Positions 2,042 to 37,027 of a stretch of 39,257 nucleotides of DNA are shown here, one piece after another. This stretch comes from Thermoflexia bacterium. Its GTDB lineage: Bacteria > Chloroflexota > Anaerolineae > B4-G1 > SLSP01. How positions within the stretch are numbered: position 1 is the first letter of the stretch; each line of letters opens with the position of its first letter. The DNA lies in NCBI GenBank assembly GCA_011192175.1, contig DUEJ01000122.1, forward strand, positions 1 through 39,257. Reading direction: 5' to 3'. The notes under the pieces are model-generated. The model ran no database searches and was not told the DNA's origin. It saw nothing but the letters and a program-made list of their open reading frames with translations. The position numbers and the translations under genes were made by a program.

Positions 2042-2076
2042 CGACTCTCAACATTTGGCTTTCGACATTCGACTTT
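2042..2076 (+). repeat. Degenerate 7-bp tandem repeat upstream of second cvpA-like gene
   Basis: Five consecutive heptamers read CGACTCT CAACATT TGGCTTT CGACATT CGACTTT. The array ends 15 bases before the ATG of the next gene. The same heptamer family (sense CGACTTT/CGACCTT) precedes tkt and the trmO-like gene in the same orientation relative to the gene. Confidence 0.75.
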
Positions 2077-2091: not shown

Positions 2092-2655
2092 ATGTTAGGT
2101 GTCTTAGACGTATTTATGATTCTATTGTGGTTAGCAGTAGTCATTTGGGGGCTTTCCCGTCAGACTATAGGAACCTTGATCTCTGGGGGGGGATTTTATC
2201 TAGCTCTGATCCTGGCGGGGACATTAGATTTAACGATCAGTCGGGCGCATAGCTTCGGGATGAAGACCGTCCTGGCTCTCTGGGGAACGACACGCTCCAT
2301 CCGCTTATTGGAAGTTATAATATTCTCTATGGTTAGCGGCGGGGTCTTTGTGATTTATCATCTGATCTTCTACCTGGCGCAGGAAGAAAGGAGCTATCCC
2401 GAATTTGGGATTATTGACAATATATTGGGCGGTGTGCTCGGAGCGCTGCTGGGATTGGTAATGGTCGCCTTGTTCGCTAATCTCTGGTGGTTAGCAGCTA
2501 GCGTTCCCTGGTCGCCGTATAATTTGCAACAAGGCATGTTAGCTAGCTATCAAGCCAGTCTACTGGCCCCTCAACTACGAGGGGTATTACGTATCTTTAA
2601 CAGAACCCTGCTCCCTTTTTTCTTCTACCAACATCCGCCCGTGTTTTTCCCCTGA
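2092..2655 (+). CDS. CvpA-family integral membrane protein (second copy)
   Basis: A 188-residue hydrophobic protein with the same plan as the preceding gene: an N-terminal LDVFMILLWLAVVIWGLSRQ helix, a central loop with acidic and aromatic residues (EERSYPEFGIIDN), and the CvpA-like ILGGVLGALLGLVMVALFAN helix. Both copies end in a similar aromatic, proline-rich tail (PFFW..GLPPVFLNW versus PFFFYQHPPVFFP), which suggests an old tandem duplication. The track starts at GTG 2086; ATG 2092 is preferred because TTGAGG sits five bases before it. Function is unknown beyond the family link to the envelope. Confidence 0.7.
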   Translation: MLGVLDVFMILLWLAVVIWGLSRQTIGTLISGGGFYLALILAGTLDLTISRAHSFGMKTVLALWGTTRSIRLLEVIIFSMVSGGVFVIYHLIFYLAQEERSYPEFGIIDNILGGVLGALLGLVMVALFANLWWLAASVPWSPYNLQQGMLASYQASLLAPQLRGVLRIFNRTLLPFFFYQHPPVFFP

Positions 2656-5656: not shown

Positions 5657-5803
5657 TCAGCCGATGATCGAGAGGTGCTGAGGGCTGGGGGCTGTGCGGC
5701 AGAGTCCTCCGAACCCCGCCAGGTCCGGAAGGAAGCAACGGTAAGGTACGACTTCTGGGTGTCGCAGTTTTCTGGCTTTCAGTACCTCTCGGAAATCGGC
5801 TGA
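5657..5803 (+). ncRNA. ffs: Signal recognition particle RNA (4.5S-type)
   Basis: Contains the hallmark apical helix of SRP RNA, CCAGGTCCGGAAGGAAGCA, with the GGAA tetraloop and the asymmetric AGCA loop bound by Ffh. The outer ends pair as TCAGCCGAT / ATCGGCTGA and then CGAGAGGT / ACCTCTCG, which sets the likely boundaries of the long hairpin. A matching promoter lies upstream and a terminator downstream, so the primary transcript is probably about 5640-5855. A small hairpin (GGCTG..CAGCC) before the main helix could be extra 5' structure. The RNA works with Ffh and FtsY in co-translational targeting. No protein is called here; the ORFs listed across it are shadows. Confidence 0.92.
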
Positions 5804-17841: not shown

Positions 17842-17914
17842 GCGGGCGTAGTTCAGTTGGTAGAACACCTCCTTGCCAAGGAGAAGGTCAAGGGTTCGAG
17901 TCCCTTCGCCCGCT
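17842..17914 (+). tRNA. tRNA-Gly (anticodon GCC)
   Basis: Acceptor GCGGGCG / CGCCCGC, D-arm with TTCAGTTGGTAGAA, anticodon loop TTGCCAA flanked by CTCC/GGAG-type pairing, and T-arm GGGTTCGAGTCCC. Discriminator is U. No 3' CCA is encoded; a T-run follows directly. Confidence 0.97.
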
Positions 17915-17922
17915 TTTTTCTT

Positions 17923-17994
17923 GGCGACGTGGCCAAGTGGTAAGGCAAGGCTCTGCAAAAGCCTTATTCGTCGGTTCAAATCCGACCGTCGCCT
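17923..17994 (+). tRNA. tRNA-Cys (anticodon GCA)
   Basis: Acceptor GGCGACG / CGTCGCC with discriminator U, anticodon loop CTGCAAA, T-arm CGGTTCAAATCCG. It starts eight bases after tRNA-Gly, so both are on one transcript. CCA is not encoded. Confidence 0.97.
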
Positions 17995-18013
17995 TTGCAT
18001 AATTGGTCACACT

Positions 18014-18037
18014 GGGCATCTGTGATGCCCGTTTTTT
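18014..18037 (+). terminator. Terminator after tRNA-Cys
   Basis: Stem GGGCATC / GATGCCC with loop TGT, followed by G and six T. It separates tRNA-Gly/Cys from tRNA-Leu, although read-through is possible because tRNA-Leu starts eight bases later. Confidence 0.8.
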
Positions 18038-18044
18038 ATATCAC

Positions 18045-18128
18045 GGGGCGGTGGCGGAATAGGCAGACGCCGGGGACTTAAAATCCCCTACTTTTACGAG
18101 TGTGTGGGTTCGACTCCCACCCGCCCTA
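18045..18128 (+). tRNA. tRNA-Leu (anticodon UAA)
   Basis: Class II tRNA: acceptor GGGGCGG pairs with CCGCCCT (one G-U at the end), D-arm TGGCGGAATAGGCAGACGC, anticodon loop CTTAAAA between GGGGA and TCCCC, a long variable arm, T-arm GGGTTCGACTCCC and discriminator A. CCA is not encoded. Its own promoter is not obvious, so it may be transcribed by read-through. Confidence 0.96.
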
Positions 18129-18139
18129 CTGATAATGAG

Positions 18140-28166: not shown

Positions 28167-30173
28167 TCAGCTCTTCATCAGATCACGGGCGCGCGCGGCG
28201 ATGCGCTCCGCTGCGAAGCCGAACTCTTCTTTGAGCCGTTGGTAAGGGGCCGATGCGCCAAAGGTATCTAGGCCCACCACTGTGCCTTGCTCACCGGTGT
28301 AACGCTCCCAGCCTAGAGTAACGCCGGCTTCAATCGCCAGCCGGCGCTTCACGTCGGGCGGGAGCACGTTGAGGCGGTAGAAAATCGATTGGGCATCGAA
28401 GAGCTTCCACGAGGGCATGCTCACTACCCGCGCGCCGATCTTCTCCGCGGCCAGTATCCGCTGCACCTCCAGCGCCACGGAGACCTCGGAACCGGTGGCG
28501 ATCAAGATAATATCAATGCGGGGGAACGCCGACTCACTCAAGATATAGGCTCCACACGCGACGCCTTCGCTGACTTTCTTCTTCGTTGCCTCCAGAATCG
28601 GCAACTTCTGGCGGGAGAGAAGCAGCGCTACCGGGCCAGTGGTACGAGTTAGCGCGACCCGCCAAGCGGCGGCCGCCTCGTTAGCGTCGGCGGGACGGAT
28701 CACGGTCAAGTTGGGGATGGCGCGCAGCGACAGCAGTTGTTCCACCGGCTGGTGCGTGGGACCATCTTCGCCCAAGAAGATTGAGTCATGCGTCCAGACG
28801 TAGGTAACGGGCACGCCCATCAGCGCAGCGAGCCGCACTGCGGGCCGCATGTAGTCGGAGAAGACGAGGAAGGTTCCGCCGTAGACCTTCAAGCCGCCGT
28901 AGAGCGCCATCCCGTTGAGAATGCCGCCCATCGCGTGCTCGCGCACGCCAAAGTGGAAATTCCGCCCCTCACGGCTTTCCGGTTGGAAGAAGGGCAGATC
29001 ATGCAAGGTAGTATTGTTAGAGGGCGCCAGGTCCGCGGAACCACCCAGTAATTCTGGGATGATGGGCGATAGAGCGTTGAGCACCCGTCCCGATGCCGCG
29101 CGCGTCGAAAGTGGTCCCTCTCTTTTCTGGAAGACCGGTAACGCGGATTCCCAATCCGCGGGTAATTCTTGGGCCCAAAGCCGTTTGAGTTCCGCGCCCT
29201 CTATGGGGTATTCTCGCTCGTAGTGCGTCAGCAAATCGCGCCAGCTAGCCTCGGCCTGGGCGCCTCGCGTGATGGCGGTTCGATAATGAACCAGCACTTC
29301 CTCCGGCACAAAGAAAGGTTCCTGCGAGGGCCAACCCAACGCCTCTTTGGTCAACCGGATCTCTTCCTGGCCCAACGGCGAGCCGTGAGCACCAGGCGTA
29401 TCGTGTTTGTTGGGGCTACCGTAGGCTAGATGAGTGTGACAGATGATGAGATGCGGTTGCCCCTTGGCGGCCTGAGCGGCCTTGACAGCGGCGTCCAAAG
29501 CTTCGATGTCATGGCCGTCCACTTCTTGGACGTGCCAATGGTAAGCCCGAAAACGCGCCGGCACATCTTCGGTAAAGGTGATGTCGGTAGAGCCTTCAAT
29601 AGAAATGTCGTTATCGTCATAGAAATAGATCAAGCGCTCCAAAGCCTGGCAACCGGCAAAGGAGGCCGCCTCGTGTGAAACGCCTTCCATCAATTCCCCA
29701 TCAGAGACGATGGCGTAGACGTAGTTATCAAAGATCGCGTAGCCCGGACGGTTAAATCTGGCCGCCAGATGCGCTTGGGCCACGGCCATCCCCACACCGG
29801 TGACAAAGCCCTGGCCCAGCGGGCCGGTGGTGGTCTCGATGCCCAACTCCGGCGCGTATTCTGGATGGCCCGGCGTCTTGCTCCCCCACTGCCGGAACTG
29901 TTTGAGGTCATCCAGCGAGAGCGGATAGCCGGTCAAGTAGAGCAGGCTGTAAAGTAAGATCGAGCCATGCCCCGCCGAGAGGATAAATCGGTCACGGTTG
30001 ATCCAGCGCGGATTGTGCGGGTTATGTTTGAGGTGCCGGGACCAGAGGACGTAGGCGATTTCCGCCGTCCCCATTGGCATCCCCGGATGTCCAGAGTGGG
30101 CCTTTTGTACCCCGTCCATCGCCAGGACGCGCAGGGCATTGGTGCTCAGTTGGTCAAATGTAGTTACTGACAT
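28167..30173 (-). CDS. tkt: Transketolase
   Basis: A 668-residue thiamine-diphosphate enzyme that moves two-carbon ketol units between sugar phosphates in the pentose phosphate pathway. Features: substrate/TPP residues in MDGVQKAHSGHPGMPMGTAEIAY, RDRFILSAGHGS, GPLGQGFVTGVGMA, and the TPP motif running from SDGELMEGVSHEA to YDDNDISIEG. The pyrimidine-binding domain has FHFGVREHAMGGILNGMAL and THDSIFLGEDGPTHQPVEQL, and the C-terminal domain has LIATGSEVSVALE. Length and domain order are normal. TAGGAGG six bases before ATG 30173 sets the start. A heptamer repeat array ends 21 bases before the start codon. Confidence 0.97.
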   Translation of the reverse strand: MSVTTFDQLSTNALRVLAMDGVQKAHSGHPGMPMGTAEIAYVLWSRHLKHNPHNPRWINRDRFILSAGHGSILLYSLLYLTGYPLSLDDLKQFRQWGSKTPGHPEYAPELGIETTTGPLGQGFVTGVGMAVAQAHLAARFNRPGYAIFDNYVYAIVSDGELMEGVSHEAASFAGCQALERLIYFYDDNDISIEGSTDITFTEDVPARFRAYHWHVQEVDGHDIEALDAAVKAAQAAKGQPHLIICHTHLAYGSPNKHDTPGAHGSPLGQEEIRLTKEALGWPSQEPFFVPEEVLVHYRTAITRGAQAEASWRDLLTHYEREYPIEGAELKRLWAQELPADWESALPVFQKREGPLSTRAASGRVLNALSPIIPELLGGSADLAPSNNTTLHDLPFFQPESREGRNFHFGVREHAMGGILNGMALYGGLKVYGGTFLVFSDYMRPAVRLAALMGVPVTYVWTHDSIFLGEDGPTHQPVEQLLSLRAIPNLTVIRPADANEAAAAWRVALTRTTGPVALLLSRQKLPILEATKKKVSEGVACGAYILSESAFPRIDIILIATGSEVSVALEVQRILAAEKIGARVVSMPSWKLFDAQSIFYRLNVLPPDVKRRLAIEAGVTLGWERYTGEQGTVVGLDTFGASAPYQRLKEEFGFAAERIAARARDLMKS

Positions 30174-30194
30174 ATTATCCTCCTAGGTTAGTTA

Positions 30195-30236
30195 CAAGTC
30201 GAAAATTAAAGGTCGAAAGTCAAAAGTCGAAGGTTG
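30195..30236 (-). repeat. 7-bp tandem repeat upstream of tkt
   Basis: On the plus strand: CAAGTCG AAAATTA AAGGTCG AAAGTCA AAAGTCG AAGGTTG. Read in the direction of tkt the units are CAACCTT CGACTTT TGACTTT CGACCTT and so on, the same family and orientation as upstream of the second cvpA-like gene and the trmO-like gene. Confidence 0.75.
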
Positions 30237-30309
30237 ACTCCATTAAAAACGATATCTCACCGCAAAGGCGCAAAGACGCTAAGCAAAAAAGAATCTGTGT
30301 AAAAAAGGG

Positions 30310-30341
30310 CTAACCGCTAACCGCCAACCGCTAACCGCTAA
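30310..30341 (+). repeat. 7-bp tandem repeat CTAACCG
   Basis: Four near-identical units (CTAACCG CTAACCG CCAACCG CTAACCG) plus CTAA, ending ten bases beyond the stop of the unknown gene at 30352. The nearby run CACCGCAAAGGCGCAAAGACGC is another degenerate repeat word. Confidence 0.7.
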
Positions 30342-30351
30342 TCTGCTAAAA

Positions 30352-30993
30352 TCAGTACTCCACGCCAGAGAGGACGCGCAGGGCGACGGTGATCCGGCGC
30401 GGACGCTCGTCCGTCAGCAGGCCCAACTCTTCCCATCGCTGGGCCAGCTCGGAGAGGCTCCGGCGCGAGATCCGCTTCGGAAAGGCGGCATGGAGCTCCT
30501 CCAGGTGAAAAGTCCCATCCAACTGGAAGGCCGCATGTTTTACCAGCGCGCGCTCCAAGATACCCAGATCGGGGAAAGCGGCCGGCGGGCGGACTTGCGG
30601 ATCAATGATAGATGCGCCCAACATCTCCAGCCAGAGCACCGCATCGTTGATCAGATCGCCCATCTGAAAGTAGAGCCGATTCGACCACTCCGCCCGGCCC
30701 TCCAGCTCGTGGATAAAGGGCGGCGAGGTGAGCACCGTCCCATAAGCGGTGAAGGGAAAATCCGCACTGCTGAAGACGCCCACATTGGGAGAGGCCGCCT
30801 CCGCCTGCAATAGATCCCAACGCTGCTCAGTAACCGTGTAGTGCAACGTAAAGGTGACGAGGATACCGCCACGCAATCGCCAATACCAGGCTACACCGAT
30901 GCGCCCCTGGTAGCCTACGGTGCGGGCCGCAATGGCCTCCAAAATCTGGTCAGCTAAGTCGAAAGTTTCAAAGGAAGGGTAAAAATGCGCCAT
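30352..30993 (-). CDS. Protein of unknown function with possible C-terminal winged helix
   Basis: A 213-residue soluble protein I do not recognise. The N-terminal half is aromatic-rich and beta-like (YQGRIGVAWYWRLRGGILVTFTLHYTVTEQRW). The middle is helical with a charged segment (HELEGRAEWSNRLYFQMGDLINDAVLWLEMLG). The last 60 residues (LDGTFHLEELHAAFPKRISRRSLSELAQRWEELGLLTDERPRRITVALRVLS) look like a winged helix-turn-helix, so DNA or RNA binding is possible. Codon use and GC match neighbours. Upstream, before ATG 30993, lies a run of GACTAAC-like words (30999-31030). There is no clear ribosome site. Gaps to tkt and to the nucleotidyltransferase gene are filled with repeats, so an operon cannot be assumed. 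Confidence 0.6.
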   Translation of the reverse strand: MAHFYPSFETFDLADQILEAIAARTVGYQGRIGVAWYWRLRGGILVTFTLHYTVTEQRWDLLQAEAASPNVGVFSSADFPFTAYGTVLTSPPFIHELEGRAEWSNRLYFQMGDLINDAVLWLEMLGASIIDPQVRPPAAFPDLGILERALVKHAAFQLDGTFHLEELHAAFPKRISRRSLSELAQRWEELGLLTDERPRRITVALRVLSGVEY

Positions 30994-34332: not shown

Positions 34333-35109
34333 ATGCGGAAGAAACAGCAAGTTATCAGTAAATTATTCGAGATATGCAAAAAGAGAAATGATTTTGTCTT
34401 TGACAACAGACTCGTCAAAAAGACCTGTGCGGAAATAGGTTTTAAAAACCCTTACGACGTAACAAAAATTGATAATTCTTCTATTTTACCCGCTGACGTT
34501 CGAGAGCAAGATTATTTTGTAATTCATTTAGGTATGGGAAACCATCAGTTTGTCAAAGGTATTCATTTTGGGTATCATGAATTTGAACCAATAAACGATG
34601 CAGAGAGAATTAGATGGAAGTATCGCAAAAGTTTGCTCAATGAATTTGATACCAGCGAATCGAACATTCTCTCTGTAGCCAATAACCAAAGGATATTACA
34701 TGATTTTTTATATAAAGATATGGTCGCCTCCCCAAAAGCATACAATTCACGCCGCACGAAAAAATCAATAACCTATTTCGTCGGGGATGAGTTTATCGAG
34801 ACAACCAACTTGCAAATGGAAATAGATTTTACATTTGAGTACCATGGAAATGTGACGGTTATTGAAGCCAAAAACAAATATCCTGAAGATTTTGCTGTTT
34901 ACCAACTTTTTCATCCTTACAAGTATTATCGTCAGTTGAAAAAAGAAGAGAACATAGATATAAAACAGATAAATAGTTGCTACATTTTGCGCAGACAAGG
35001 GGAGGAAGGGTCTGTCTTGCGGTTATACAAATATACCTTTGATGATGAAAATCAAATTAGCTCAATACGACTGGTGGAAAAAGCAGAATACGCTCTTGTA
35101 AAACGATAA
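34333..35109 (+). CDS. Type II restriction endonuclease (PD-(D/E)XK fold)
   Basis: A 258-residue protein encoded in AT-rich DNA unlike its neighbours. The likely nuclease core is MEIDFTFEYHGNVTVIEAKNKYPEDFAVYQL: Asp165, then Glu178-Ala-Lys180 (the ExK of PD-(D/E)XK nucleases), followed by a helix with Gln191. The N-terminal part (about 1-150) probably contacts DNA and sets specificity. The immediate downstream partner is a DNA methyltransferase gene, which makes a restriction role the best reading. The recognition site is unknown. AAGGAG seven to eight bases before ATG supports the start. GC content and gene pairing suggest horizontal acquisition. Confidence 0.75.
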   Translation: MRKKQQVISKLFEICKKRNDFVFDNRLVKKTCAEIGFKNPYDVTKIDNSSILPADVREQDYFVIHLGMGNHQFVKGIHFGYHEFEPINDAERIRWKYRKSLLNEFDTSESNILSVANNQRILHDFLYKDMVASPKAYNSRRTKKSITYFVGDEFIETTNLQMEIDFTFEYHGNVTVIEAKNKYPEDFAVYQLFHPYKYYRQLKKEENIDIKQINSCYILRRQGEEGSVLRLYKYTFDDENQISSIRLVEKAEYALVKR

Positions 35110-35145
35110 ACCTGACAAATTTCTTGCCTCAGAAAGAGTGAAAAT

Positions 35146-36012
35146 ATGTCCAATAAAATAACCAAATATCTTAATCAAGTTTATTTTGGCGATATTATGG
35201 AGCTACTTAAAAAATTACCCGACCAAAGTGTTGACCTAGTTTACAGTGATCCGGATTACAATGTGGGGATCAAATATGGTAGTCAATCTTACACGGTCAG
35301 TTTTAACGAGTATATCGACTGGTATATTGAACTCAGCAAAGAATCTCTGCGTGTACTCAAAGATAGCGGCAATATGTTTTTAATCAATTATCCAAAACAG
35401 AACTCACATTTACGAGTAAAATATCTTGATGACGCTTGTTACGATGTATTAGATTATGCCTGGGTATATAATTCAAATATAGGACATAGCCCTAGCAGAT
35501 TTACCACCGCGCATAGAAGTATTCTTCATTGTAGAAAAACTAAGAAGAATAATTTCTATAAAAACAATGTTGCCCTGCCCTACAAAAATCCAAATGATAA
35601 ACGCATCAAACAAAGGCTTGCAAATGGCTCCAGAGGAAGAATGCCTTACGATTGGTTTTATTTTGATTTAGTAAAAAATGTTAGTAAAGAGAAAACATTC
35701 CATGCTTGCCAAATTCCTCAAGCTCTATCAGAAATGCTTATAAAATCATCCACTATGCCTAATGACAATGTCTTAATTCACTTCGGGGGGAGCGGTTCCG
35801 AAATAGAAGTTTGTCAAAGAATAGACAGAAACTTTATCGCGGCTGAAATTGACAGAAAGTATTACAAAATGATTGTTGATAGACTCGATTCAGGAAAAAT
35901 CAAACCTGAATACCGACTTGAATTTCGACGAGCAACAAACTTTGCGCGACAACAAGCTCGCTTACTAGAAAAAGAGAACGAATACATAACAGATAACAAG
36001 ACTGACAGTTAA
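35146..36012 (+). CDS. Beta-class DNA methyltransferase (N6-adenine or N4-cytosine)
   Basis: A 288-residue methyltransferase with beta-class motif order. Near the N terminus are FGDIMELLKKLPDQSVDLVYSDPDYNVG (motif IV at residues 34-38) and the motif-V to VIII-like LSKESLRVLKDSGNMFLI. A central target-recognition region follows. At the C-terminal side are motif X-like KTFHACQIPQALSEMLIKSST, motif I HFGGSGSE (about 212-219) and the acidic IAAEID. Odd: motif IV reads DPDY where nearly all members have (D/N/S)PP(Y/F/W), so one proline that shapes the catalytic pocket is Asp. It would protect host DNA against the adjacent endonuclease. It begins 36 bases after that gene, same operon, with a weak ribosome site (AGAGTG). 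Confidence 0.88.
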   Translation: MSNKITKYLNQVYFGDIMELLKKLPDQSVDLVYSDPDYNVGIKYGSQSYTVSFNEYIDWYIELSKESLRVLKDSGNMFLINYPKQNSHLRVKYLDDACYDVLDYAWVYNSNIGHSPSRFTTAHRSILHCRKTKKNNFYKNNVALPYKNPNDKRIKQRLANGSRGRMPYDWFYFDLVKNVSKEKTFHACQIPQALSEMLIKSSTMPNDNVLIHFGGSGSEIEVCQRIDRNFIAAEIDRKYYKMIVDRLDSGKIKPEYRLEFRRATNFARQQARLLEKENEYITDNKTDS

Positions 36013-36386: not shown

Positions 36387-36878
36387 CTACTCCGTTGTTA
36401 GAAAGCGATCATCGGCGTGGGTGGTCGTGGCGGCGCGTGATTTGCCGGTCAGCCAACCGAGGCGGATCTCATCCGTGCTGCGGAAGAAGGGTACGTAGGG
36501 TTTGATATCCAAGAGCGGCGTGCCGTCCACCATATCCACATCCAAGAAGTGCAATGTCGCGCCCTCAATCCGTTCCAGCCGCACCAACGAGAGACCGATG
36601 GGATTGGGTCGCCGGGGAGCGCGCATGGCGAAGACGCCCCGTGGCGTCTCATCCATGTAGGGCTGGGCTTGTAAGCTATAGCCCTCCGAGAGGTGAAAAT
36701 GGTAGAGGAGCAGGAGATGAGAGAATCCCGCCAGGTCTTTTAAGCCGGGGAGATATTCCGGTTCCAGAGTGAGATAGCCGTGCAGGCCGCGTCCCGCCGT
36801 GGGCTGGATGGGGACTCCTACCTGCTCCTGGAACGGGGTGTGGATGATACCAATGGGTCTGTAGATGATTGTTTGCAT
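36387..36878 (-). CDS. trmO: TrmO-like tRNA methyltransferase (TsaA/UPF0066 family)
   Basis: A 163-residue protein of the TsaA/YaeB family. Motifs: RPIGIIHTPFQEQVGVPIQP at the N terminus, GLKDLAGFSHLLLLYHFH, RAPRRPNPIGLSLVRLERI, and VDGTPLLDIKPYVPFF. The E. coli member TrmO methylates N6-threonylcarbamoyladenosine at position 37 of tRNA-Thr using SAM. The protein is shorter than TrmO of E. coli and lacks its C-terminal extension, as do many family members, so exact substrate is inferred. ATG 36878 has AGAGGTG just before it. A heptamer repeat array ends 13 to 20 bases upstream of the start. Confidence 0.85.
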   Translation of the reverse strand: MQTIIYRPIGIIHTPFQEQVGVPIQPTAGRGLHGYLTLEPEYLPGLKDLAGFSHLLLLYHFHLSEGYSLQAQPYMDETPRGVFAMRAPRRPNPIGLSLVRLERIEGATLHFLDVDMVDGTPLLDIKPYVPFFRSTDEIRLGWLTGKSRAATTTHADDRFLTTE

Positions 36879-36891
36879 GGCACCTCTAATT

Positions 36892-36954
36892 CAAGTCTAA
36901 AGTCGAAGGTTGAAAGTCAAAGGTCGAAGGTCGAAAGTCGAAAGTCGAAGGTTG
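36892..36954 (-). repeat. 7-bp tandem repeat upstream of trmO-like gene
   Basis: Nine units on the plus strand: CAAGTCT AAAGTCG AAGGTTG AAAGTCA AAGGTCG AAGGTCG AAAGTCG AAAGTCG AAGGTTG. This is the longest array of the heptamer family in the window. Confidence 0.85.
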
Positions 36955-37027
36955 ACTTTGCTGAAATAAGCTAGTGTTCTGTCAAGTGTAAAATTAGCAG
37001 GGGGCTACCATACGCCGACCGCTCACT

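Follow-up and report, generated by a model that had tools for sequence, protein, structure and literature searches.

Degenerate heptamer arrays of a Thermoflexia bacterium run outward from the start and stop codons of unrelated genes

STRR sequences of heterocystous cyanobacteria have a degenerate 7-bp unit and form many dispersed arrays in intergenic DNA. Among cyanobacterial repeats, the G-rich Nostoc subset is the only one for which we found a polarity rule described. This subset, GGGGA(C/T)T in Nostoc/Anabaena, and the Xanthomonas heptamer GGGAATC were described by Rehm et al. in 2015 as having a gene-outward layout, which was discussed by way of G-quadruplexes (PMC4692102). The Rehm repeats are mostly intergenic and lie at genes of general metabolism, their length varies between related genomes, and inverted pairs occur (PMC4692102). 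In marine Beggiatoaceae, most TAACTGA repeats read forward and stand immediately ahead of start codons; a minority is oriented toward stops, and the genes concerned have no common function (MacGregor 2015, PMC4679880).

Here we describe arrays of the degenerate heptamer RGTYRAA (YTTYRACY when read in the sense of the downstream gene) in a Thermoflexia bacterium of the Chloroflexota. The gene-outward layout itself has already been published for other repeats; what is new is that a heptamer without G-triplets obeys it. The arrays share with the Rehm repeats a heptamer period, an intergenic enrichment and the placement of the unit on the non-coding strand upstream of starts and on the coding strand at stops. 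Those repeats contain G-tracts and form G-quadruplexes, put forward by the authors as a possible basis. By its unit position frequencies, RGTYRAA does not go beyond GG, and its arrays have a median length of 6-7 units (the longest about 33 to 36), whereas the Rehm repeats prefer four. An outward layout in a unit free of G-triplets means that G-quadruplexes are not needed for it. With the TAACTGA repeats the arrays have in common the forward orientation directly ahead of start codons and an AACT core of the sense unit (GATAACT versus TTTAACT), although the TAACTGA unit is nearly invariant and different in sequence. The TAACTGA repeats also mostly occupy the place of the Shine-Dalgarno sequence, whereas the present arrays lie just outside it, a Shine-Dalgarno-like site being found at 31 of 36 array genes. 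An initial annotation of this DNA had likened the arrays to STRR. The likeness holds for unit length and, by description rather than by unit sequence, for degenerate heptanucleotide arrays in non-coding DNA, but the Rehm-type and TAACTGA repeats are closer published matches.

The window, meaning the whole stretch of 39,257 nucleotides that was analysed, is contig 27 of the source genome (G000; 2.40 Mb, 169 contigs, 86% complete). Its arrays and their genes are as follows.

36894..36956, minus strand: start-adjacent array of trmO, nine units; YTTYRACY sense on the minus strand and RGTYRAA on the plus strand, outward from the gene
36387..36878, minus strand: trmO-like gene, Pfam TrmO_N (PF01980) at 7.7e-38; start codon ends at 36878
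30190..30238, minus strand: start-adjacent array of tkt, six to seven units, sense YTTYRACY
28167..30173, minus strand: transketolase gene (tkt), by Pfam
30309..30341, minus strand: GGTTAGC array (unit on the minus strand), about 10 nt past the stop codon of ORF 30352-30993 and outward from that stop
2042..2075, plus strand: start-adjacent degenerate array of the second cvpA-like gene, about five units, sense strand
2092..2655, plus strand: second cvpA-like gene, Colicin_V (PF02674) at 1.2e-6, 29.0 bits against a cut-off of 29.3; ATG at 2092

The CvpA/Colicin_V match, from a Pfam scan of the window genes, is weak and slightly below its cut-off. All three start-adjacent arrays were also listed by Tandem Repeats Finder, and a scan of the window for three consecutive RGTYRAA units with up to three mismatches gave 13 matches against 0.12 expected, a number reached by no shuffle. 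Each of the three reads YTTYRACY in the sense of its own gene and ends 13-15 nt (trmO), 16-21 nt (tkt) or 15-17 nt (second cvpA) before the start codon, the ranges depending on the chosen array end. These are the three arrays of the initial annotation, all real and at most a few bases from where it had placed them. They belong to a genome-wide population that it missed, as it missed a second class, opposite in sense, at stop codons; the GGTTAGC array at 30309-30341 is an example, and it gives the tkt gap an array at each end, the two facing each other.

In the 2.4 Mb of the source genome there are 179 exact three-unit RGTYRAA matches, against 4 for the reversed pattern. Arrays were further detected with a log-odds array finder in the window and 60 further stretches, together 0.75 Mb and enriched for array-bearing contigs, where starts and stops were computed with our own dicodon-model gene caller and are uncurated. 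In this sample, 65 of 68 arrays are intergenic, although only 14.5% of bases are (P about 1e-50). A search blind to the unit agreed with the period of 7 first proposed: periods 7 and 14 dominate the intergenic tandem repeats, period 8 less so, and periods 5, 6 and 9-11 are nearly absent. The downstream genes inspected are unrelated and mostly housekeeping, such as trmO and tkt (a formal domain scan covered the window genes) and others resembling sufS, hutI and rdgB. Unlike phase-variation simple sequence repeats, the arrays had no link to surface or contingency genes among those inspected.

A single rule describes both classes of array: the RGTYRAA strand leads away from whichever gene edge is closest, be it a start or a stop. 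In gaps between co-directional genes, start-adjacent arrays point outward versus inward in a ratio of 29:0 in the source genome, 11:0 in a sister species of the same genus (G001) and 11:0 in a member of another genus (G009); for stop-adjacent arrays the ratios are 10:1, 4:1 and 4:0, respectively. All compared genomes are draft assemblies. Between a start-adjacent array of the source genome and the start codon lie 18 nt (median), and the Shine-Dalgarno sequence follows the array after about 8 nt. Stop-adjacent arrays carry RGTYRAA on the strand of the gene and mostly begin between 14 nt inside and 12 nt past it; they are outnumbered by the start-adjacent arrays by about 2.5 to 1. Outward-anchored arrays number 51 of 61, 29 of 39 and 19 of 21 in the three genomes, and maxima of 28, 17 and 14 were reached when arrays were put at random, on a random strand, in their own gaps. 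The same outward tendency is seen, with smaller numbers, in related units such as GGTTAGC and AGTTGCA. A generic purine bias outside genes was rejected as an explanation: away from arrays it amounts to only about 0.52 beyond the Shine-Dalgarno sequence and to 0.51-0.56 following stop codons, and lone heptamers that are not part of an array have no polarity. The initial annotation had staked itself on a genome-wide orientation bias and on enrichment near start codons, and both were found; the bias and the location just outside the ribosome site were correctly described. Its wording of the orientation as sense relative to the downstream gene has to give way to outward from any edge, stops included.

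The constant place of the start-adjacent arrays and their exceptionless sense orientation would suit a translational leader, in which a pyrimidine-rich array just outside the Shine-Dalgarno sequence serves the ribosome as a standby or S1-type binding tract and its unit number tunes output. Leaders conserved in other respects do differ in unit number (L275 and L288, for example), binding of S1, Csp or Csr was proposed by MacGregor for the TAACTGA repeats (PMC4679880), and the excess of start-adjacent arrays would also fit a start-specific function. We regard this explanation as unlikely. It leaves the stop-adjacent arrays unexplained, unit number is unconserved, the genes are unrelated, and the predicted accessibility of the initiation region differs neither from that with the natural upstream sequence (P 0.94) nor from that with a reversed array (P 0.45). 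The hypothesis of an unstructured leader was rejected on the same folding comparison, in which the array brought no gain over either sequence. Because the rule extends to stops and the layout is outward, a reading based only on leader length or translation cannot explain the polarity. Expression tuning by the arrays, which the initial annotation had raised, may still take place; as the cause of the polarity it found no support, and folding gave no hint that the initiation region is opened by the array or by its orientation. The outward rule, here obeyed by a heptamer lacking G-triplets and without exception at starts in the co-directional gaps examined, separates the layout from quadruplex formation and from a purely translational role.

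About a quarter of the start-adjacent arrays in the stretches read lie within a dispersed element of roughly 130 bp, of which the source genome and the sister species together hold 32 copies, nearly all directly before start codons of unrelated genes (e.g., L045:6457-6595, L052:5130-5261, L280:2140-2292 and L277:2129-2253, and 28 others). Its consensus is AGGAGTCCCCATGTGGGATTCCACACCAACAATAATGAAAATGCTTCACTAACGCCAACACCTTGGTCTTGAAGCAGACTTTAG-(heptamers, variable number)-ACTTATTTTCAGAGGAGG, with the first third missing or divergent in several copies. The head is often palindromic (GGARTCCC-N5-GGGATTCC) and the element ends in the Shine-Dalgarno sequence; one copy lies tail-first at a stop (L034, 12035-12114). 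The heptamer tract is the variable part, orthologs L275 and L288 differing by four units (28 bp). The core pattern has 18 exact matches in the source genome (one, on C1, seemingly by chance), 9 in the sister species and almost none elsewhere; the element is genus-specific. The tail TATTTTC is present at 13 of 36 array genes versus 13 of 518 others, and the head is absent from all three window arrays. A structured RNA was rejected, as only one of eight predicted pairs covaries, covariation does not rise above that of shuffled controls and Rfam has nothing matching. A promoter/operator regulon and a MITE are both candidate identities for the element.

Comparison with the sister species, which is mostly 85-95% identical along shared stretches, shows how the arrays change. 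The initial annotation had held that unit number can change without touching a reading frame and had proposed comparing it between strains; compared here between two species, 13 of 14 common arrays differ in unit number, and orthologs differ by 7-bp steps and by presence or absence of whole arrays. At trmO, 9 units in the source genome correspond to about 4-5 in the sister species, and past the array the two sequences have little in common; at several sites the distal part of the gap is almost wholly turned over. At equal thresholds, two arrays of the source genome are absent from the matching edge in the sister species and four the other way round, with one clean array-absent site at L039. 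Retention between the two species appears high, in stretches of the sister genome that were picked for having arrays. In the wider family most genomes have no matches and two have many, G003 (85) and G009 (76); here and there in the class, above all in a distant family (f29), genomes reach up to about 64. At tkt, most genera of the family have no array, and G006 has a degenerate sense array of its own. In G004, of another genus, a long 15-bp tandem array (GAAGCCTTAGCTTTCT-like) lies directly before tkt (L257).

Neighbouring arrays on opposite strands, counted in four lineages, are facing in 27 cases and back-to-back in none. In family f29 they form tight, hairpin-like inverted pairs with gaps of mostly 5-14 nt; in stretches L231-L250 these read (RGTYRAA)n-loop-(TTYRACY)n, and some lie within called ORFs. 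As the outward rule is strand-symmetric, a DNA-level process is indicated. On balance we favour, with some reserve, slippage-prone, STRR-type heptamer arrays with a built-in outward polarity that arise and spread as DNA. They would probably do so as arms of inverted, facing repeats, which would fill intergenic gaps up to the functional gene edges and later lose or expand one arm. Such an inverted-pair origin is extrapolated from G009 and family f29, and single arms prevail in the source genome and the sister species. Arrays would be kept only where neither coding sequence nor ribosome site is touched, and their length would drift by slippage. Upstream copies would inevitably end up as the final portion of the 5' region ahead of the ribosome site, and effects on expression would be a by-product or a later co-option rather than the cause of the polarity.

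Two other explanations were considered. If the arrays were boundary elements that start, pause or stop transcription, a polymerase leaving a gene on either strand would make the same purine-rich RNA, the facing pairs of family f29, set 5-14 nt apart, could serve as terminator-like hairpins, and there would be a parallel in Xanthomonas, where transcripts began or ended in the G-rich heptamers more than in controls (PMC4692102). A single arm alone cannot form a hairpin, however, and in the trmO gap a search for promoters and terminators gave nothing above chance level, and we consider such a role decidedly improbable. Still harder to credit is that the arrays are ends of mobile elements or 3'-end additions by a telomerase-like reverse transcriptase, outward at both kinds of edge. 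Strand-symmetric polarity, presence or absence of arrays between sister species and the dispersed leader element with its genus-bound core matches would all agree with it. Reverse transcriptase (PF00078) was not found in the incomplete assemblies of the source genome and the sister species, the units are degenerate, unlike templated copies, and counts of Y1 transposase do not track array abundance. Neither the array-absent site L039 nor the enzyme searches tied a target-site duplication or a mobile enzyme to the arrays. REP/RAYT elements combine palindromic arms with an associated TnpA-REP (Y1) transposase; here facing pairs occur, and Y1_Tnp counts do not follow the abundance of arrays.

The outward layout in a heptamer without G-triplets turns an odd observation in three groups into the general and testable question of how intergenic repeats gain polarity relative to genes. 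It is conceivable, if doubtful, that a single DNA process or form of selection, for the most part independent of sequence, marks gene edges and gives the unrelated heptamers of distant bacteria their common polarity. If so, explaining the earlier cases by G-quadruplexes or translation signals would become secondary.

Several further features were noted in the window and its surroundings. Intergenic 8-bp families (CGCAAAGR, ACTCGCTC and others) occur at 30261-30283 and in many other gaps, a recurrent sequence, CTSTACTGAAAAAACCAAG..TTTCACCRC, adjoins arrays, and the gaps have the look of a patchwork built from several repeat families. At 34333-36012, a DUF6996/DUF6997 gene adjoining an N6/N4 DNA methylase is probably a restriction-modification cassette, seemingly absent from the sister species between the same neighbours (L206). 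The window also holds a small SRP RNA gene at 5683-5780 and a cluster of tRNA-Gly, tRNA-Cys and tRNA-Leu at 17842-18129.
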